Shown here piece after piece: positions 4,733 to 51,247 of a stretch of DNA of 64,000 nucleotides. The translations under genes were made by a program, and so were the position numbers. The stretch is from Crambe crambe (lineage: Eukaryota > Porifera > Demospongiae > Poecilosclerida > Crambeidae), in the NCBI GenBank assembly GCA_963924555.1, contig OZ004592.1, forward strand, positions 2,852,001 through 2,916,000, read 5' to 3'. How positions within the stretch are numbered: position 1 is the first letter of the stretch; every line of letters starts with the position of its first letter. Below the pieces are notes generated by a model. That model was given only the letters and a program-made list of their open reading frames with translations, was not told where the DNA came from and did no database searches.

Positions 4733-7700
4733 ATGTCTTCTCTGAGACTTCTAACCAGAAAATATTTTGCACAACCTACGTTGTCTACCAAGGCAATCAG
4801 ACAAGGTAACTAAAAATTAATCAGCTGAATGCTGTATTATTATTTGCTACTCATGCAGCCACCAGCTCGGTCAAAACAAAACCAAGACAAGCTAAGCAAA
4901 GTAAGTTGTGTAGCTACAATGATTGACAGCACAACGTGAAACGAGGAAGGGATGGGTATAGTTAGTTGCTAGCTAGTTACTTAGAGATATAACAAATTGC
5001 TCAAATGTGAGTAGATAGCTAACCAGCCTAACCAGCAAAGCATCATAGTCATGAAACAGTCCACAGATACCTCTTATAGTACATATCTAGAGCAGGACCA
5101 TGCATCTCTATAGTATCAAAACTACCAATAATAAGGTACCACACACCCTAATTATAATGCAGTATGTAAAGGCTACTTTCTTCATGCAATCCAGGGCTGG
5201 CTAGCTGCATGCATAACTATTATATTGGTAGCTACCAGAAGTGTTGGGGAATTAAAATTGCATGTGCTTCAACATACACTAAGGCCTGGCCCATACATTA
5301 TGCTGGCAAGATATATCCTACCTGAATAACTATTGGAGTCACTACTAATAGGTACCAGCTAGCTAGCTACCTTTGATAGCTTACAGTGATTTTGTTAAGT
5401 GATGACCAGTTACTAGTGGAAAGTATTTGCTCATGGAGGTAGCTAGCTATAGTTCAATAGTAAATCAACAATAAAAGCAATAACGTAATAAAAGGCATGG
5501 CTACATGCTGAGTGGGGAGGGTGAGGACTTGGAGATATAATGATTGTTGCTGCTTCCAATATGGCTATAGTCCTGTGAGGGATGAATCATGCATGCTCAA
5601 AAGTCTAAAATAAAATATGCATTATAGCTAATAAAAAAGGAGAATATGTTTGTAGATATAGTACTTCCTGGACTAATGATTATGATGCTCAGAAGGTATT
5701 ATAGCTGTAGTTAAAGTTGTATACCTGATGGTCCTTTATTATACAATAGCTATACATCCACATTTTCCTCCTCCTCCTCACCCCACCCTGTTATTCATGT
5801 TTCAGTTGGTCGTAATGTTGTCCTTATTGATGGAGTGAGAACACCTTTTCTTACTTTCAGATCAGAGTAAGTCAAGTTTTCCCTTAATCCAATAGGATAG
5901 TTTATGTGATACTTTCTTTTGTCCACACCAGTTTCAAAGACCTAGGGATCTCTGATCTCCAATCCTATGCATTTCGGTATTGAAATTAATTGTTCATTAT
6001 TGCTGGTAAAACAATTAAACACTTGTGGTATATTATTATTATTGCAGGAGTTTGCTGAATAGAACTGGACTACCACTTGGTACAGTATAACATGATTATC
6101 ATAATAGCTAAGCTTTACTATAACATTTAACTTCCAGATTTTGTAGATTATGTTCTAACAGGACTAGTTACGCAATTGAATACTCAAATCAGCAATGTTG
6201 CTAGGATTGTAAGCCTAATATTTTTATTTTATCTTTATTCTTAACAATAATTAAATGCAGGCAGCTGTTCAAGCTGGTCTAAGTGATGATATTCCTTGTC
6301 ACACAATAAGCATGGGCTGTGTATCTTCAAATGCTGCAATTAATACAGGTTAGAATTCATCCTAAAACTGGATAATCAACCTGAAATGTGAATGCAATAA
6401 TAACAACAATACTTTTGCAAGGCATACCCACTGATGGTGGCGTCAATGCAAGTATAAAACATTTTTAGAAACAACAACAACAACAAATATTTTATCACTT
6501 GGATGCTTATCAACTTCTACATTTAAAATAGTTAGCTACATTATTTAGAGTAGTTACACATGAATGTCATCCCCTACAAGCTATGGAGTTTATGCATTAA
6601 TATAATACACATATACATAGGAATGATGATGATAAGATTAGGTGAGAGTGATATTATAATGGCTGGAGGGGTAGATAGTACATCAGATGCCCCTATCAAA
6701 ATAAGACCTGAAGTGAGAGGAGCTATGATTGATATACGTTATGTAAGTTTGTTATAAGTTTTCTGCAGCTTTATCAGTTATAGTTATGGCTATTGTGACA
6801 GATTGAGAAGACATTAATGGGAAAGGCCAAGAAAGTGTTCCAGATTCTCAGGCATGTGGGTATAGAGGTGAATGAATCTAGCTATCAACATCTATAATAC
6901 TACTGATATCTGTTGAAGATTCCAAGTTCTGAAGAGTACACCTCCAATGAAATAGTGGGTCACAATGCTGATCGTCTTGCTGCATCCTTTGGTGTAACTC
7001 GTGTAGAGCAAGATGAGTTTGCCTGCAGGTCTCACATTCTAGCACACAAGGCCACCCAGAATGGATATTTGAGTGATATAATAGCAGTACACATACCAGG
7101 TATATAGCTGTAGAAAGCCATAGTAAAACTGGCTAGCAAAGTTTGCAGATGCATAGTGACATAAGCCATGCAATGCATAGTTAAGTCTTACCGGTACAGT
7201 TCACACAGAGCTTAATAGCTAACTATAGCTAGCCTAGCTAAACTAGCACGAGTCAAAAAATTTGGATGTCATAAGAATGAACCAGCTATGCTTTGGTAGG
7301 GTTGACTGTTTTGAGAAGCATTTATTATTACATAGGCAAAGAGAAATCAGTGAGTAGTGATAATGGGATCAAACTTACCACTCCTGAGGAGATGGCTAAC
7401 CTGAAACCAGTTTTTATCAAACCACATGGCACTGTCACTGCAGCAAACTCTTCCTTCTTAGTATGTTTAACTCATATTATGCTATATGCTTTCTCATGGT
7501 GGTTCTAAAATCCCAGACTGATGGAGCTTCAGCTCTTTTGATGATGAGCGAGGAGAAGGCATTAGAACTGGGATATAAACCTAAGGCCTATCTCAGGTAT
7601 GCAGAGCCCTCTTAACTTAGTTTCATAAGCCAGACGTATTCTTGGAGGAGGAGGAGAAAGGAGAAAATATATCTGGTGAATGTTGCCAAGACTTAGCTAC

Positions 7701-27777: not shown

Positions 27778-29134
27778 CTATCTCTGTTCATACTTGGCTG
27801 TATGATGTGGAGCCTCCTTGGGGAAAGAGGTGCCAAGGTTTAGCCCATGCTTATAGCAAGTGATGACCACATCATAGTCATCTATAGTCAGGTCTATGGT
27901 CTCATTTCCACTCCCACAGAGAAAGCAGATGGTATAGAGAGCGACTTCAAACTCGGGGCTAGTACCAATAAAAGTGCTACCCATAGGTTTCATCTGCATA
28001 AAACATAAAAAGGTCAATACCACACCAGCTATCTCCTTCCACTTACTTCATACTATAGAACTGGAAACTTCATTATCATTATTGAAATTTAAAATTTGAG
28101 TGGGTGCAGATGGCATGGCTCATTAATGTTGCCTTATGTTCATAAAGTTTCTAGTCTTACATTATTATGCATACTTGGACTCTCAAATGGGAAGGACAGA
28201 AGCAACCCCTTTTAGTGTGACACAAGTTTCCCACTACAAATTAGTGAGGGAAGTGACTCCCTATCTGAACTCACCTCTCTATTCCACTTGAATTTGATAG
28301 TCAATAAGTGGGCTTTGTTTCCAAGCTCAGGCTACATGAGTTCATTTGAGCTCAGGCGCATACAGAGAAATAATTTCTTACTTTTTTGCCTAATACATAT
28401 CCCTGGTAATCCACATTTCCTGCCTTCTCCTGCAAGTAAAATTGTATCCAGTTATGGAAGCCCAAGACATCTTTGCCTCCTTTTGTCTCTCCTACAAATA
28501 CATGCTCAAATCCTGAGGAGTCCAGAGCTCGGCTACCTCTTGTTCGACGATATAGCTTGAACCATATGTCATAGAGTTGTTCCTTAAATTTGCGTACATC
28601 ATTTGCGCTCTTTCGTTTAGAGATGAGATACTTGTGAGCTAGTTTCATCACCTAAAAGGTAAGGCATTCCAGTCTCACAAATTTCACCATTATATGCATG
28701 TTGCTCTTTGTTGCAATCACCATAGCTGTATTTACCTTGGTGCTACATATATTGTCAATAAAGGTTCTGTTTTCCCTGATTTCCTCAGGAGTCACTTCCT
28801 CTTGTTTTCCTGTACTTGACTCATAGTTATCCAGCAGGGCTATGAAGCTGCAGAAAGTTGGCCGTTGTAGAATGTCATCCTTAACAAAAGTAAACAGAGG
28901 ATCCTCAGCTTTATCCTGACGCCAATAGGCCTTGGTACCTATAACAACACAAGACTCATTCTATAGAGCTAGCTGAGCTGGAATAATAAAAAAAATCTCC
29001 TTGCTAGCTATTTCCTTACCACCCTGTAAATTGATTTGGTAGTCCCTTCCCGGCACAAGTCTGTTTTCATCTGCTTCCCATAATTGAGTACATATCTTGC
29101 TCAATTCAGAGTTGGGTTCGAAATTACTGGCCAT
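27778..29134 (-). CDS. ENDOU-like: XendoU-type poly(U)-specific endoribonuclease
   Basis: Manganese-dependent endoribonuclease family that cuts at uridylates. Four exons in transcript order: 29134-29018, 28936-28737, 28653-28381, 27992-27778. The start is [20 protein letters not shown], with no signal peptide, so the protein is probably cytosolic or nuclear, unlike secreted vertebrate ENDOU. Domain signatures: [16 protein letters not shown], then [10 protein letters not shown] (first catalytic histidine), [15 protein letters not shown] (second catalytic histidine in the HNW motif) and [20 protein letters not shown] near the C-terminus. The C-terminal region has lysines (CYKHG, FPKEAP) of which one should be the catalytic lysine; I cannot assign it without alignment. 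The protein ends shortly after, in HTAKYEQR. There is one XendoU domain and no somatomedin B repeats. Confidence 0.9.
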
Positions 29135-29298
29135 GGTATTAGCTGGGTACCGACGATGTTAGCCACGCCCATTCCAACCATCAATAATTATTGCAAATTA
29201 ATTTTTGTTTTAATTTTTATTTCACTCTCCCTTTACCGTAGATTTTCTAATTAGCGCGTCATTCTTAAATAAGCGCCAAAACCACACCTTAAGTGTAA
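29135..29298. promoter_or_regulatory. ENDOU 5' flank
   Basis: Short region upstream of the ENDOU start and left of the large palindromic element. It carries TACCGTAGATTTTCTAATTA followed by GCGCGTCA, which resembles the motif in the hairpin at 36240-36360 on the far side of the element (TACCGTA, then CTAATTAACGCGCCA). The likeness may reflect a dispersed repeat. Confidence 0.35.
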
Positions 29299-29357
29299 GG
29301 ACCGGCTAGAAATGACGTCATAGTGAGACTCAAGATATTTCGCGACATCAAAAATCA
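29299..29357 (+). repeat. Left terminal inverted repeat of the palindrome
   Basis: Matches the complement of 36151-36209 over 59 bp with two mismatches; begins GGACCGGCTAGAAATGACGT and ends ATCAAAAATCA. Confidence 0.9.
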
Positions 29358-29929
29358 TTACAGTACTGTACTAACATATTTCAGCATAGATTCAGATTCG
29401 ATGATCTGCAGAGATCGCAGCTAAGGAATCGAGTTGATGCAGTTATCTCTCAATACTAAGCACAGCCTACAAGAATAGACTGACAGTGACCGAAGACCAG
29501 GCGAAATAAAGAGTAAGATGAAGCTGCTAGCTAGCTAAGAACAAGCTAACTGCAATGAAATGTGTAGCTATATCACATATTCTATTATACTAGCTGTTTA
29601 GCTGTGTAGCTATGCTGCAAGAAGTGATGAAACGAAGAAGGATGGATGAGTGAAGGACTGGATAAAATGAGTGGAATGATAAATTCCAGACAAGCCGGTG
29701 TCACAGTTTATTTTGTCGCTGGGAGATTCTGTCGCGGCGACAAAATATCCTAGGAAATTCTGTCGCGAGCGACATAATCTCCTAGGATATTTCGTCGCCG
29801 CCAGGATATATTGTCGCTGCATATAAGTACCTATCGGAGAGGTGGCATAGCTATATCTGATTATACAAACACAATCGGTCACCAACAAATTGCTCTCCTA
29901 GCAATAAAAGCCACTTGTTCTAAAATTAG

Positions 29930-30180
29930 ACCTTGGAAAGAAGGCTTCCTCCATCAAGTACCTAGGAATCCAACAATCTCTCCTGGGTTGGTAAGGGTCG
30001 CCGCTATGCCAGACTATCAGCTGCAGCATCACCCAATTGCCTTACCTGCCTCTACTATGCCATAGTAGTCCCGATCCTAGACTACGGTGCCAGTATCTGG
30101 GATCCACATCACAACAGGCTGACTAGATTATGGACTCTCTGCCACCAATTGATATAACCTTATAAAGGTGCTCCTACCAT
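29930..30180 (+). pseudogene. Fragment of a non-LTR retrotransposon reverse transcriptase
   Basis: Translating + in two frames gives SIKYLGIQQSLLGW (29948-29990), the usual KYLGxxxxxxLxW motif after the RT palm, then, after a frame change, YAIVVPILDYGASIWDPHHN (30056-30115), the LxPxLxYGxxxWDP motif of the LINE thumb region. Spacing and order fit LINE-type elements. It is short, frameshifted and sits between the left inverted end of element A and element B. Confidence 0.75.
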
Positions 30181-30517
30181 CAAATCCAAACTCAAAGATT
30201 ACCTTTGATCAGTTATTTTGAGAAGTTTTGAAGCCAATAACTTGCACATTCCATCTTGTCTCCCCTTGCCGAAACTGTATGTCAAATCCCAAGCCACCCA
30301 ATCATAATTATACGTGAGTAGACATTTTCCAATAAAACTCTATCATGCATTCACATCAATAGATCAGTTAATAATAATTTGCTGCTAGCTATAAACCAGT
30401 GAAATATTCCACCGTTGTACACTTGCAAAAAATATACATAGCTAGCAAGATGCTAGAAAAAAACATGCTCCTTTGAAGTATGAGTGATATATACAATAAC
30501 ATATATGTGACTCAATT

Positions 30518-31539
30518 TAGGAAAAGGGGGCACTTCACGCAAGATAAATTTTTGAGATATGCGCGTTTAAACTAGCCTTAGGTAAAAAAAAATATTTTTA
30601 TCCACTTCTTTTTCCTTGCTTCCACAGTATCTTCAGTCCTTTATCTAACTTCCTGCCAAATTTCAGGAAGTGGGAAGGATTTGAAGTAGGCAAGCGCTCG
30701 AGTTGAAGTGAGCTACCTCACCCGGAACTTATTTCACATCCTACGTGCCCAAATTTCAATCTTCAATTACGGAGGATGTATGAGCATAATGCGCGGAAAT
30801 AAGGGAAATTCCCCACACAACAATAAAAATTCATATTGATGATTTTTACTGAATACAAAGTAGCTACACAGATATTTAGCTAGCTACAGATAGGAAGAGG
30901 TTGTGGTAGGAGCCATCCAACTTCATATGTCAGAAGATCCAGATATAGAGGTGCTGGATGAATTCTATGTCTCCTTCAACCCCAAGACAGTAGTCAAACA
31001 CAGCCCAGATCCTACCAGTGTCTAGATTCCAACTCAGGCTAACACCACTTCCACAGGAATCAACTAATACAGCAGAGATAGGATCATAAAACTTACAAGT
31101 ACTATTAAAACTACTGATGTACAAACATCTATCTACCCAAACTTTACCTGATCATTATTCAGAACTTGTTCCATATCTAGCATGCCTCAGATAACCCAAG
31201 CGCTCAAAGATAACAACGTAGTAAAGCTAAGTCTACTTCTTCTCCACACAGCTGCTACACGAGGTGAGAAAAATTGAATGATGTCATCGCGTTATACGGA
31301 CTTCCGTAAGGATTTACGGAGCATTGGGTATTGACCGGAAGTTCAATGTTTAGACGCCGTTTATTGCAAAACGCTTATTCAATCTTTCTCTGAGGTGATG
31401 TACTTCAAGCGCTTATAGCTCCGCGGTGGTTTAAGATTTAGCCTCAAGCGTAGTATCGGTGAAATTCTAAGGTAATGAGCTATAGCGTGGTATTAATAAC
31501 TCCATTTTAAATTTTTGCGTGAAGTGCCCCCTTTTCCTA
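30518..31539. mobile_element. Nested element B, 1.0 kb with perfect 25-bp inverted ends
   Basis: TAGGAAAAGGGGGCACTTCA at the left (30518-30542) is exactly mirrored at 31515-31539. The repeat may begin two bases inside, leaving TA on each side as a target duplication. Further out TATATGTGAC (30502-30511) and GTCACATATA (31546-31555) also mirror each other, so the true ends may be wider. The interior has CpG-containing blocks at 30640-30790 and 31265-31500 and a possible captured coding fragment on - (30895-31200). Confidence 0.75.
30895..31200 (-). pseudogene. Possible captured coding fragment inside element B
   Basis: A 64-codon open frame on - (31124-30930) ends in LGVEGDIEFIQHLYIWIF, with CGSGVSLSWNLDTGRIWAVF earlier. 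Directly upstream on the same strand, GGCATGCTAGATATGGAACA leads to GATCAG|GTAAAG, which looks like an exon end and donor. Family not recognised. It may be a host exon picked up by the element or chance. Confidence 0.3.
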
Positions 31540-31929
31540 TAGCCTGTCACATATACACCCAACTATATTAAAGGTGAATAGCTAACAAGCTTGAGATTTT
31601 GATGCACCTATAAATAGCATTGCTCTTTCTCTCGTTTTATCTATAGAAAAAAACTAGTGAAAAAATATCCCATTAAAGATTTATCACCAAGACAGAAACG
31701 ACCTAGGAGATGTTTTATTGCTAGGAAAGCTATTTGTTGGTGACCGATTGTGCAGATATAGCTATGCCACCTCTCCGATAGGTACTTTATATGCAGCGAC
31801 AATATATCCTGGCGGCGACGAAATATCCTAGGAGATTATGTCGCTCGCGACAGAATTTCCTAGGATATTTTGTCGCCGCAACAAAATCTCCCAGCGACAA
31901 AATGAACTGTGACAGGCCGGACTGCTATA

Positions 31930-33020
31930 AATTTGGGGAAATCACACTATACTAGCACTTGAAGCACTCTCTGTACTGCATTTAATTAGAATTGACACTC
32001 TATGAAGGTTAGAATCATAATGATAATGATAGAGAAGAACCGAACGGAAAAAGAAAAGGACTGGGCTCTATTGTGGGCACCAGACTGCTCTAATTAGAGA
32101 GACCACACTATACCAGCACTAAGACACTCTTGAGCATCTCTGTACTGCATGTAATTAGAGTTGACATCCTGTGACGGAATCAAATTAGAATCACAGAGAA
32201 GGACCGGATGAAAAAGAGAAGGACCGGGCTCTATTGCAGGCACCAGACTGCTCTAATTAAAGAGACCACACTATACCAGCACTAAGACACTCTTGAGAGT
32301 CTCTGTACTGCATGTAATTAGAGTTGACATCCTGTGACGGAATCAAATTAGAATCATAGAGAAGGACCAGATGAAAAAGAGAAGGACCGGGCTCTATTGC
32401 AGGCACCAGACTGCTCTAATTAAAGAGACCACACTATACCAGCACTAAGACACTCTTGAGAGTCTCTGTACTGCATGTAATTAGAGTTGACAGCCTGTGA
32501 CAGAATCGAATTAGAATCACAAAGAAGGACCGGATGAAAAAGAGAAGGACTGGGCTCTATTGCGGGCACCAGGCTGTTCTAATTAGAGAGACCACATTAT
32601 ACCAGCACTAAGACACTCTTGAGAGTCTCTGTACTGCGTGTAATTAGAGTTGACAGCCTGTGACGGAATCAAATTAGAATCACAAAGAAGGACCGGATGA
32701 AAAAGAGAAGGACCAGGCTCTATTGCAGGCACCAGGCTGCTCTAATTAGAGAGACCACACTATACCAGCACTAAGACACTCTTGAGAGTCTCTGTACTGC
32801 ATGTAATTAGAGTTGACAGCCTGTGACAGAATCATCACAGAGAAGGACCGGATAAAAAAGGGAAGGACCGGGCTCATTGCAGGCACCAGACTGCTCTAAT
32901 TAGAGAGACCACACTATGCCAGCTCTAAGACACTCGTGTGAATCTCTATACTGCATATAATTGGAGTTGACATCCTGTGACGGAATCAAATTAGAATCAC
33001 AAAGGACTGGATGAAAAAAA
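31930..33020 (+). repeat. Left-arm tandem array of a ~163-bp unit (about 7 copies)
   Basis: The TCTGTACTGCATGTAATTAG motif recurs at about 31970, 32141, 32303, 32466, 32627, 32790 and 32947, giving a period of 157-171 bp, mostly 162-164. Each unit also contains CACCAGACTGCTCTAATTA, AGAGACCACACTATACCAGC, GTTGACATCCTGTGACGGAA and GAAGGACCGGATGAAAAAGA. Units differ by a few substitutions and indels; the first and last are the most diverged. Confidence 0.92.
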
Positions 33021-33184
33021 AAAAGAGAAGGGCACAAAAGTACTCATGAGCATGCCTATAGCTATTTATTTGCAACATTAATTCACTTCTATTGGCCTGT
33101 ATGCAAACAATTTTTCAGACTTGCACACTCAAGCTATCCAAAGGGGGGTGGGGCTCATATCTGCAGGGTATTTCGGAGACCTTA

Positions 33185-33500
33185 AGGAGTTAACACACAA
33201 TAATGTTGTCATGGGTAGATTGGATGAGTAGAAAGGCTGTGACAAGATTTGGTGACCGCAGACTTGTTAATATCCAAGTAATGGATAAGTCATGTGCCTG
33301 GGAAATCAGATTTTTGCTAGCAGGGAGTGTAGTTTTAGTAATAGGAAGGTCAAATTGTGACATTGGGACCTCTATACAGTGCTCTACCACATACTTCATG
33401 GATGGGAAAATTAACCCCATCTATGCTGATTACATGACGTACCACCATGGGAGCATACGTGATTGAAGTAGAGCGACTGCTAGCTAGAGCTAGGACACTA
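33185..33500 (+). repeat. Inner palindrome block with an open frame, left copy
   Basis: Mirrors 34080-34480 on the other arm. Both arms carry a related open frame starting MLSWVDW(M/V)SRKAVTRFGD and containing GTSIQCST(T/A)YFMDG. The left copy runs 87 codons unbroken (33203-33466); the right copy is split by an indel. I do not recognise the protein. It may be the relic of a gene carried by the element. Confidence 0.6.
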
Positions 33501-33563
33501 ATGGCTATTTGGAAACATCAAGATGATATCATGCACACCTATGGTATAATTCCCAGCTATATA

Positions 33564-33784
33564 CCTGGGTGTATCCACCACTCCGGGGTTGGTCCGGTTT
33601 TCACCGGACCACTTTTTATCCCATGCCTGCAGAGTTAGCCAAGTGATTATGTATCCTTCAAGAATCATGATCACATTAGCATATCAAAACTCCTTCTGAT
33701 AAGTGGGTGAATGATATAAAGTGGGCATGGTTATCCCACGCACAAGCACACTGGGCCACTCAAAATTCTGTGGATGCACCCCTG
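33564..33784. mobile_element. MITE M1 (about 220 bp) near the palindrome centre
   Basis: Ends CTGGGTGTATCCAC and GTGGATGCACCCCTG form short inverted repeats; the interior TTTTCACCGGACCACTTTTT and GATAAGTGGGTGAATGATAT match M2 at 34826-35066. The mirror position in the right arm lacks it, so it inserted after the palindrome formed. CAGGGGT-type termini resemble hAT-derived MITEs. Confidence 0.8.
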
Positions 33785-34080
33785 TTATAACAGCTGTGGT
33801 TCTCCCTATTTGGTGTCCAGATAGCTCTAAGTGAATATATACCCTGAATTAGTTGTTTCAAAATCAGTGCTACTTTTTAGCTAATGATACATACACATCT
33901 TTTTATGAACCTTGATCTCTAGACCTCTCTGCAGGGTATGGGGTATATTCACTTAGAGCTAACTGACTACTTTAATATCTGGACACCACGTACATAGGGA
34001 GAACCTATTAGAGCTGTTATATAGCTGTTCCATTAGAGGAACTATACCCCACTCTTCCTCCCCCCTTTGTAGTCTGCATG
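33785..34080. repeat. Palindrome centre with inner inverted pair
   Basis: GGTTCTCCCTATTTGGTGTC plus AGATAGCTCTAAGTGAATAT (33791-33836) is mirrored by 33948-34012. The unpaired loop is about 110 bp (33840-33945). Pairing continues outward on both sides, making this the hinge of the whole structure. Confidence 0.75.
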
Positions 34081-34600
34081 ATATCATCTTGATGTTTCCA
34101 AATAGCCACTAGTGTCCATGCTAGCAGTGGCTCTACTTCAATCACGTATATGCTCCCATGGTGGTACGTCATGTAATCAGCATAGATGGGGTTAATTTCT
34201 CCATCCATGAAGTATGCAGTAGAGCACTGTATAGAGGTCCCAGTGTCACAATTTGACCTTCCTAGCATTAAAACTACACTCCCTGTGAGCAAAAATCTGA
34301 TTTCCAGCATTGTTGGTGAAAAAAATCACTACAATGTAAAACATAATGTGATGTGATCTTTTATGAAATCTGTCACAGGCACATGAATTACCTGTTACTT
34401 GGATATTAACAAGTCTGTGGTCACCAAATCTTGTCACAGCCTTTCTACTCACCCAATCTACCCATGACAACATTATTGTGCATTAACCCCTTAAGGTCTC
34501 CGAAATACCCTGCAGATATGAGCCCCACCCCCCTTTGGATAGCTGAAATGAAGTGCTTATGAGCATGCATATAGCTACATACACCTTATTGTGCCCTTCT
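34081..34600 (-). repeat. Inner palindrome block, right copy
   Basis: Complement of 33040-33500, including the open frame MLSWVDWVSRKAVTRFGD (34473 leftward) and the flanking GGGTATTTCGGAGACCTTAA stretch. An insertion of about 75 bp near 34305-34385 interrupts the frame relative to the left copy. Confidence 0.75.
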
Positions 34601-34604
34601 CTTT

Positions 34605-36060
34605 TTTTTTTCATCCAGTCTCTTCTTTGTGATTCTAATTTGATTCCGTCACAGGGTGTCAACTCCAATTACATGCAGTACAGAGATCCACACGAGTGTC
34701 TTAGAGTGTGGTCTCCCTAATTAGAGCAGTCTGGTGCCTGCAATAGAACCCAGTCCTTCTCTTTTTCATCTGGTCCTTCTCTGTGATTCTAATTTGATTC
34801 CATCACAGGGTGTCAACTCTAATAACAGGGGTATATCCAACACTCCGGTTGGTCCAGTTTTCACCGGACCACTTTTTCACATGCCTGCGGAGTTAGCCAA
34901 GTGATTATGTATATGTGAAGTACCATGACCTTCAAGAATCATGATCACATTGTAGCATAGCTTTATCAAAACTCCTTCTGATAAGTAGGTGAATGATATA
35001 AAGTGTGCATGGTGATCCCACGCACAAGCACACCGGGCCACTCAAAATTTTGTGGATACACCCCTGCAGTACAGAGACTCTCAAGAGGTCTTAGTGCTGG
35101 TATAGTGTGGTCTCTCGAATTAGAGCAGTCTGGTGCCCACAATAGAGCCCGGTCCTTCTCTTTTTCATCCGGTCCTTCTCTGTGATTCTAATTTGATTCC
35201 GTCACAGGATGTCAACTCTAATTACATGCAGTACAGAGACTCCCAAAAGTGTCTTAGTGCTGGTATAGTGTGGTCTCTCGAATTAGAGCAGCCTGGTGCC
35301 CGCAATAGAGCCCGGTCCTTCTCTTTTTCATCCGGTCCTTCTCTGTGATTCTAATTTGATTCCGTCGCAGGATGTCAACTCTAACTACATGCAGTACAGA
35401 GACTCTCAAGAGTGTCTTAGTCCTGGTATAATGTGGTCTCTCTGATTAGAGCAGCCTGGTATCCGCAATAGAGCCTGGTCCTTCTCTTTTTCATCCGGTC
35501 CTTCTCTGTGATTCCAATTTGATTCCGTTGCAGGATGTCAACTCTAATTACATGCAGTACAGAGACTCTCAAGAGTGTCTTAGTGCTGGTATAGTGTGGT
35601 CTCTTTAATTAGAGCAGTTTGGTGCCTGCAATAGAGCCCGGTCCTTCTCTTTTTCATCCAGTCCTTCTCTATGATTCTAATTTGATTCCGTCACAGGATG
35701 TCAACTCTAATTACATGCAGTACAGAGACTCTCAAGAGTGTCTTAGTGCTGGTATAGTGTGGTCTCTTTAATTAGAGCAGTCTGGTGCCTGCAATAGAGC
35801 CCAGTCTTTCTCTTTTTCATCCGGTCCTTCTCTGTGATTCTAATTTGATTCCGTCACAGGATGTCAACTCTAATTACATGCAGTACAGAGACTCTCAAGA
35901 GTGTCTTAGTGCTGGTATAGTGTGGTCTCTTTAATTAGAGCAGTTTGGTGCCTGCAATAGAGCCCGGTCCTTCTCTTTTTCATCCGGTCCTTCTCTATGA
36001 TTCTAATTTGATTCCTTCACAGGATGTCAACTCTAATTACATGCAGTACAGAGACGTCCT
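34605..36060 (-). repeat. Right-arm tandem array of the ~163-bp unit (about 8 copies)
   Basis: The complement motif ATGCAGTACAGAGA recurs at about 34675, 35066, 35227, 35389, 35551, 35717, 35879 and 36043. The first gap is widened by MITE M2. Units match the left-arm array in reverse orientation, and the last part (36090-36150) matches the left boundary unit at 31978-32050, including the TCATTATCATTATGATTCTA run. Confidence 0.92.
34826..35066. mobile_element. MITE M2 (about 240 bp) inside the right array
   Basis: CAGGGGTATATCCAACACTC at the left and TTGTGGATACACCCCTG at the right. Same family as M1, slightly longer (an extra ATGTGAAGTACC stretch). It interrupts a ~163-bp unit between TCAACTCTAATA and CAGTACAGAGAC. 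Confidence 0.85.
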
Positions 36061-36150
36061 TTTTTTATTTTTTTGTTCGGTTTTTCTCTATCATTATCAT
36101 TATGATTCTAACCTTCACAGAGTGTCAATTCTAATTAAATGCAGCATAGC

Positions 36151-36209
36151 TGATTTTTGATCTCGCGAAATATCTTGAATCTCACTATGACGTCATTTCT
36201 AGCCGGTCC
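36151..36209 (-). repeat. Right terminal inverted repeat of the palindrome
   Basis: Complement of 29299-29357 with two mismatches. The flanking sequence, read in the complement, is GTAGAAGGACG followed by the repeat, close to the GAAGGACCGG motif of the internal units, suggesting the unit and the terminus share origin. Confidence 0.9.
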
Positions 36210-36234
36210 CGTCCTTCTACTGTTTTCGCTACCT

Positions 36235-36365
36235 GGAAAAGCTACCGTATTTTTTTCTAATTAACGCGCCAGAAAAAAATAAATTGTGCAATTCTTAAAA
36301 CATGTGTCTGGAAAAAATACGGTAGCTTTTCCAGGCACATGTTTTAAGAACTGCACAAATACTTT
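36235..36365. repeat. Hairpin with TACGGTAGC and ACATGTTTTAAGAA arms
   Basis: GAAAAGCTACCGTATTTTTT (36236-36255) is mirrored by AAAAAATACGGTAGCTTTTC (36313-36333), and the intervening TGCAATTCTTAAAACATGTG is mirrored just beyond by CACATGTTTTAAGAACTGCA. Two interlocked inverted repeats within 130 bp; probably a small element or its end. Confidence 0.7.

Positions 36366-42998: not shown

Positions 42999-51247
<8,249 letters not shown>

Follow-up and report, generated by a model that had tools for sequence, protein, structure and literature searches.

A palindromic foldback transposon family in the sponge Crambe crambe and its candidate KDZ-like helper gene

The window analysed here is a stretch of 64,000 nucleotides from the sponge Crambe crambe (assembly GCA_963924555.1, contig OZ004592.1, positions 2,852,001 to 2,916,000 of the forward strand), and coordinates without a prefix refer to it. 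Positions 29299..36232 hold a palindromic (foldback) element, to which no strand is assigned and which has lost its outer tips. We read it as a damaged, non-autonomous copy of a foldback family mobilised by a transposase of the Kyakuja-Dileera-Zisupton (KDZ) type or of a close sister group, and give this reading a probability of roughly 0.68. Relatives elsewhere in the genome establish that the palindrome is the mobile unit of a DNA transposon family. But which enzyme moves a palindrome that carries no gene? The initial annotation had called the mobilising enzyme of such elements often unknown; this can be taken further here by a gene-bearing relative that shares the family's ends.

The genome searched comprises 143 Mb in 119 contigs (C-names denote its contigs, L-names the loci fetched from it). 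The inner 60-bp terminal repeat has at least 37 matches there, among which, with the window, are 11 inverted pairs. The 163-bp unit that builds the arrays of the element has at least 299 matches, and a stretch (33132-33457) of the half-core, the unique block mirrored about the centre, has at least 75. Two half-cores face each other at no fewer than 14 places, the window included, and 13 of these palindromes were read (the window, L009-L016, L019, L020, L022 and L041), one on C9 being left out. In aligned copies the terminal repeat extends about 43 bp further outwards, with CATCTATTAAATGTAGCGAAAACTGTAGAAGGACCCTGTAGAA at one end and GACCTATTAAATGTAGCGAAAACAGTAGAAGG... at the other. The characteristic tips are CATCTATTAA... 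on the side of half-core type X and GACCTATTAA... on the side of type Y, with one exception. Both tips are kept in 8 of the 11 inverted pairs (the window and a gene-bearing element on C10 are counted among the 11), while the window copy, L009 and L011 each lack at least one. Identical 7-bp duplications flank seven of the eight two-tip copies (GTGTGTT, CACATGT, CATCATG, CGTAACC, GGAACAC, GTATATC and GCTTAGC), and six of seven when only palindromic copies are counted. The family thus has the long inverted ends of tandem subrepeats round a short or variable middle that define the foldback class, and its two-tip copies are dispersed with target duplications. The foldback assignment made from the window sequence is borne out in this way: many loci with different flanks share this architecture, and target duplications accompany it where the tips survive.

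The link to an enzyme comes from C10:1257219-1271880 (L017+L018), a 14.7-kb relative that shares the family's tips, with CATC on the left, GACC on the right and ACAG at both, and that is flanked on both sides by the 7-bp sequence GTATATC. Its arms of about 3.4 kb contain inverted 163-bp arrays and are 92.5% identical; its middle of about 8 kb contains open frames on either strand. Six exons of the + strand can be spliced into 677 amino acids without a stop (682 with an alternative donor). The protein carries VIMDATSLSF, VIYDNACNLHSYCLNREP and INSQVVEQSNSTL, with a D298-D582-E638 pattern in which these three residues are a candidate catalytic triad. Similar motifs occur in animal proteins of the KDZ group. 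The 133-amino-acid D2-E part matched the Pfam family PF18758 (KDZ) with E 4.5e-4 and 20.4 bits, below the curated cut-off of 26.6. Controls (the reversed sequence and five shuffles, n=6) gave no KDZ match, and their best match to any family had E 0.024. It was the spliced D2-E part alone that matched: Pfam scans of single frames from the C10, C18 and C6 genes returned no transposase domain, and a search of solved structures with the 133-amino-acid part returned nothing up to E 10. Taken together, the motifs and the partial match suggest that the C10 gene would encode a transposase of KDZ type or of a close sister group.

The KDZ-like gene is also present at four places on C18, which makes five loci in total. 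By coordinates, all five have 163-bp units upstream and the subterminal region of the family downstream in inverse orientation; at the C18 loci the upstream units lie at 6-16 kb, among the matches listed. This layout was read directly at two of the loci, C10 and one on C18 (L037, L039), the latter having arrays on both sides and no tips. On its - strand, the C18 copy L037 has pieces that resemble an OTU protease (E 0.0028) and, separately, a PHD finger (E 2.9e-5), neither match reaching the cut-off; frames much like these are present in the C10 element. More distant protein relatives lie on C6, C1, C17, C3 and C4. The four gene-bearing relatives on C18 all fall within 400 kb (C18:521000-921000), with no nearby terminal-repeat match among those listed, and two of the gene copies have identical protein match scores, which suggests a segmental duplication there.

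A short motif is shared by the two kinds of element. AGAAGGACC occurs twice at each family tip, and a 163-bp unit holds as many as two copies. There are 19 in the window element, against a mean of 0.045 in 200 shuffles and none in the other 57 kb: eight in the left array (32197..32849, + strand) and 11 in the right array (34772..35994, - strand), all of the latter on the strand opposite to those of the left array. They are candidate transposase-binding sites. In all 11 palindromic relatives examined (12 were fetched and L020 was left out) every + motif precedes every - motif, and the C10 element is arranged likewise.

How would such elements move? The transposase would bind AGAAGGACC at the tips and in the 163-bp units, and the arrays would be clusters of binding sites that draw it to both ends, as proposed for Galileo, whose THAP domain binds additional sites in the tandem repeats of the element ends (PMC3688188; this and the other sources are cited for the parts of their text available to us). 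The tips would then be cut and the element inserted with a 7-bp stagger. Either kind of element could be cut and pasted, the gene-less palindromes moving in trans by the transposase of the gene-bearing one. The palindrome itself may have been derived from a gene-bearing element that lost its coding middle and whose half-core, the inner part of the left arm, was copied reversed onto the right; the homology of the arrays could have been the bridge for this reverse copying.

Several findings weigh against the KDZ reading. In addition to the sub-threshold score, the full 677-amino-acid splice has no Pfam match, and a genome search with PF18758 gave 59 matches, the C10 gene not among them. One intron of the C10 splice lacks a GT donor, so that the gene may be non-functional. 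The second Asp is missing from the C18 copy that was read, and the relative L038 (5.5 kb on C6) has no array and a frame break near this residue; hence none of these is a proven intact helper. At C18:687884-688395 a 163-bp unit stands with a half-core and no gene match nearby among the matches listed. The palindromes carry no gene, and their mobilisation in trans is suggested by the shared ends. The duplication of L016 is of 6 bp (CACTAT), and this copy is also the exception to the tip rule, each of its ends, the X side included, having GACC and ACAG-like sequence. The window copy has neither intact tips nor a target duplication that could be found. Finally, the count of AGAAGGACC is high because the motif belongs to the 163-bp unit.

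Could another enzyme be at work? The KDZ-like gene might be mere cargo of the 14.7-kb element, the real helper being another KDZ gene or an integrase of the rva_4 type, which we hold to be unlikely. The 59 KDZ domain matches elsewhere in the genome, the nearest one noticed being separated by about 12 kb from a C20 copy, speak for it, as do rva_4 integrase-core genes that adjoin two copies: at L012 (positions 1-507) the domain match lies about 0.4 kb outside the tip, and at the solo end L021 (positions 2068-2862) about 1.4 kb away. However, rva_4 has at least 155 matches in the genome (150 of 326 candidates scored), the match at L012 falls outside the target duplication, and none of the rva_4 and KDZ matches listed lies inside a two-ended element when coordinates are compared by eye, whereas the KDZ-like gene, with its D-D-E pattern, is inside the element at five of five loci by coordinates. 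The last point also counts against a Galileo-like foldback of the P superfamily, mobilised by a THAP/P transposase that is encoded elsewhere in the genome, since the gene between the arrays at these loci is KDZ-like. Galileo does join 7-bp duplications, the length found here, to long and internally repetitive ends (PMC3573991), and P-type RNase-H domains (PF21787) are abundant, with at least 150 matches (150 of 197 candidates scored). Yet none of the P-type matches listed lies inside a two-ended family element, again by eye, and neither the splice nor the longer frames scanned (six of the C10 element, five of the C18 copy) contain a THAP/P domain; we regard this explanation as improbable, more so than the cargo reading. 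As an observation apart, about 3.5 kb separate a P-type fragment (C19:2095142) from an array (C19:2098948), and this fragment has further occurrences in the genome.

What of Mutator, to which most foldback elements would be expected to belong? Foldback is a structural class whose members are mostly presumed to be related to Mutator, the P-type Galileo being among the exceptions (PMC4079207), and the MULE domain has 54 matches in the genome. None of the 54 is inside a two-ended element by eye, and the duplications, of 7 bp in seven of eight copies and of 6 bp in one, differ from the 8-10 bp of Mutator, the lengths made by Tm1 and Tetris; a Mutator-type foldback is very improbable here. The least credible of all is that the palindrome is an assembly fold-back or an immobile segmental inverted duplication. 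Long inverted repeats are an assembly hazard, and the window copy is without a target duplication, but at least 14 palindromes (13 of them read) stand at different flanks, six of the seven two-tip palindromes have 7-bp duplications, the halves are diverged by about 6% and there are arm-specific insertions. An assembly artefact is already refuted for the family; for the window copy, the initial annotation had argued against one from the divergence of the arms and their insertions.

Galileo has a P/THAP gene, whereas here the gene is KDZ-like and the repeat a 163-bp unit; unlike Galileo, including its copies with two terminal inverted repeats (2-TIR), the palindrome possesses its own mirrored core, which has spread as a unit. 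Tm1 of root-knot nematodes also has foldback-like composite ends and gene-bearing as well as gene-less forms, and its asymmetric terminal motifs A1/A2 are comparable to the CATC/GACC tips; it differs in its mostly 9-bp duplications, its repeats of about 14 bp and its assignment to Mutator by its authors (PMC3169594). Tetris of Drosophila virilis is gene-less like the window copy, with tandem repeats of about 220 bp within inverted ends. Its duplications are of 8-10 bp, however, and no gene-bearing partner of it was found according to the available text (PMC4079207), whereas a candidate partner is found here. The comparison with KDZ elements is likewise divided. Two Kyakuja families have 7-bp duplications and CA..TG tips without inverted ends, and Zisupton has 8 bp (PMC12730594); Cryptococcus KDZ1-3 are of 9-11 kb, with ends of 139-241 bp, duplications of 4-8 bp (KDZ1 8 bp) and a CxC1 domain beside the core (PMC12810828). 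The 7-bp duplication common here falls within the 7-8 bp of KDZ elements, CA stands at the tip as in Kyakuja, and the size is large as in KDZ1-3. The differences are that the available text of these two sources (PMC12730594, PMC12810828) describes no KDZ element whose arms are kilobase arrays and that no Pfam CxC match was obtained in the scanned C10 and C18 frames or the splice, though cysteine pairs are visible. For Dada, whose targets are multicopy RNA genes, the 6-7-bp duplications fit the family, but Dada-U6 and Dada-U1, as described in the available part of the source, are without terminal inverted repeats, which are long here.

Among the papers listed, the limited open-access literature yielded no link between KDZ and foldback elements; PMC4022104 counts both foldback and Zisupton elements, and its main text, in the part available, does not mention Zisupton. 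We file the family as a foldback element and as KDZ-like, not as a proven KDZ member. We lean, with some reserve, towards a KDZ-type transposase as the driving enzyme of this foldback family, which would make KDZ a further class, besides Mutator and P, in which kilobase inverted arrays of binding sites have evolved independently. If true, this would support a convergent evolution of long repeat-array arms through the gathering of transposase-binding sites. Foldback elements recur in many organisms, and Galileo has produced chromosome inversions. For some of them, such as Tetris, the enzyme has not been found; in this genome, shared tips and target duplications allow a candidate helper to be named.

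Did the palindrome form once or many times? Each of the 13 palindromes read has one X and one Y half-core, with identities of 97-100% among X, 98-100% among Y and 93-95% between X and Y. Because both classes are found in all 13, the palindrome must have formed once and then spread as a unit. The X-Y divergence of about 6% represents either the age since formation or a difference that the halves brought in. The CATC tip goes with X and GACC with Y in six of the seven palindromic copies with both tips readable, and the tip pairings are distinct, CATC with ACTG and GACC with ACAG. As the ends keep distinct tips in this fixed relation to X and Y, an origin solely by inverted duplication of one end is rejected. 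Single half-cores were also found: L025, L026 and L037 each have one in the stretch read, with 88-95% identity to both classes, and L024 has one X half. L037 is a truncated gene-bearing copy. These single half-cores fit a history in which they would be older than the palindrome and once stood in one arm of a gene-bearing element. Have the two arms been homogenised? In the subterminal regions of nine copies no clear signal of this was seen: left-right identity within copies was 92.0-98.4%, and averages between copies were X-X 96.8, Y-Y 95.3 and X-Y 95.4. Since gene-bearing, single-half-core and palindromic forms survive in one genome, the birth of a foldback element may be readable here, and its origin, if this is true, becomes testable. 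In one palindromic copy, L014, a second set of tandem repeats of 54-70 bp was noticed at positions 6592-7685.

Much of the structure described from the window sequence alone stands up to closer measurement. The inner terminal repeats (29299-29358 and 36150-36209) match over 59 bp with two mismatches (96.6%). They are real, but they are not the ends of the element, the family tips lying about 43 bp beyond 29299 and 36209. The left tip is absent, with the inner repeat and the subterminal start surviving at 29299..29380 (+ strand). On the right, the inner repeat 36150-36209 is followed by an outer-tip remnant, 36210-36232 (together 36150..36232, - strand), of the ACAG type that matches the Y side of other copies. 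The window copy is without a readable duplication because its tips are lost, and it is probably immobile. Moving inwards on the + strand, native subterminal sequence remains at 29575..29698 (75-92% identity to other copies), between two insertions named M1 and A, and beyond A at 31911..31989 (94-96% to L010/L012), followed by the left array at 31968..33018 with 6.5 copies of the 163-bp unit. Half-core X occupies 33019..33846 (+ strand) and includes a copy of the sequence M2 at 33568-33785. The short central loop, placed near 33.9 kb by the initial annotation, is of 85 bp at 33847..33931 (no strand). Half-core Y (33932..34590, - strand) mirrors X, with 94% identity in the multiple alignment. 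The right array (34595..36055, - strand) begins with part units and a second M2 copy (34828-35065), after which the full 163-bp period runs over 35065-36055 for 6.1 copies, in the orientation opposite to the left array. A residual right subterminal part at 36063..36149 (- strand) mirrors 31971-32057 at 92%; about 215 bp of subterminal sequence present in L010 and L012 is missing from the right arm.

The symmetry is far from what chance would give. The arms form an inverted repeat of 788 nt that is 95% complementary, and the mirrored unique blocks recognised earlier are confirmed as half-cores with 90-93% identity between 33132-33538 and 34072-34544. Inwards, the mirror reaches 33786-33846 and 33932-34021 (alignment score 68, against 26 for the best of 200 shuffles). 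In 31915-36209 the longest exact inverted word is of 142 nt, whereas 20 dinucleotide shuffles gave none above 14, which excludes a chance origin of the palindrome.

The left arm is split, as had been described, by an element A that itself holds an element B. Element A (29699..31914, no strand) has terminal inverted repeats of 128 bp at 98% identity. Its insertion site, ACAAGCCGGACTG, is uninterrupted in L010, and 5-bp GCCGG is repeated at the junctions of A in the window. The 128-bp end has at least 41 matches of at least 121 bases in the genome, two of them in the window (40 of 383 candidates scored), and A is a member of an abundant family. Its relative L040 sits at a CGGACCGG repeat, which resembles the GGACCGG motif of the foldback family. 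L040 aligns to 29695-30312 of the window at 93.6% and has the same LINE-like stretch, which therefore belongs to A; its reading frames in A are broken. L040 and the A of the window differ across 30313-30468. Element B (about 30507..31553, no strand), with inverted ends of about 50 bp at 84%, is absent from L040 and so is a separate insertion. M1 (about 29383..29574, no strand) is an insertion of about 190 bp absent from the fetched copies, and its bases 29374-29548 have one other match, at C12:1231039-1231213 (98%). The sites of A and M1 are uninterrupted in the other copies compared, which identifies both as insertions. The order of events first proposed, with A, M1 and M2 entering a finished palindrome and B following A or arriving within it, holds for the insertions A, B and M1. 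It does not hold for M2. Each of the three copies compared (L010, L012 and L016) contains counterparts of both M2 copies, which rules out M2 as late, arm-specific insertions and makes it older than the spread of the family.

Immediately next to the right end, another short inverted repeat (TACCGTATTTTTT...AAAAAATACGGTA) was seen by eye at 36240-36350, and the left flank, at about 29240-29270, carries related sequence; an older repeat may therefore surround or adjoin the element. At 28352-28651, a little to the left of the element, is a frame for an XendoU-type endoribonuclease (Pfam XendoU, E 1.1e-37). Farther to the right, a (TG)87 simple repeat with 97% matches occupies 49210-49383.

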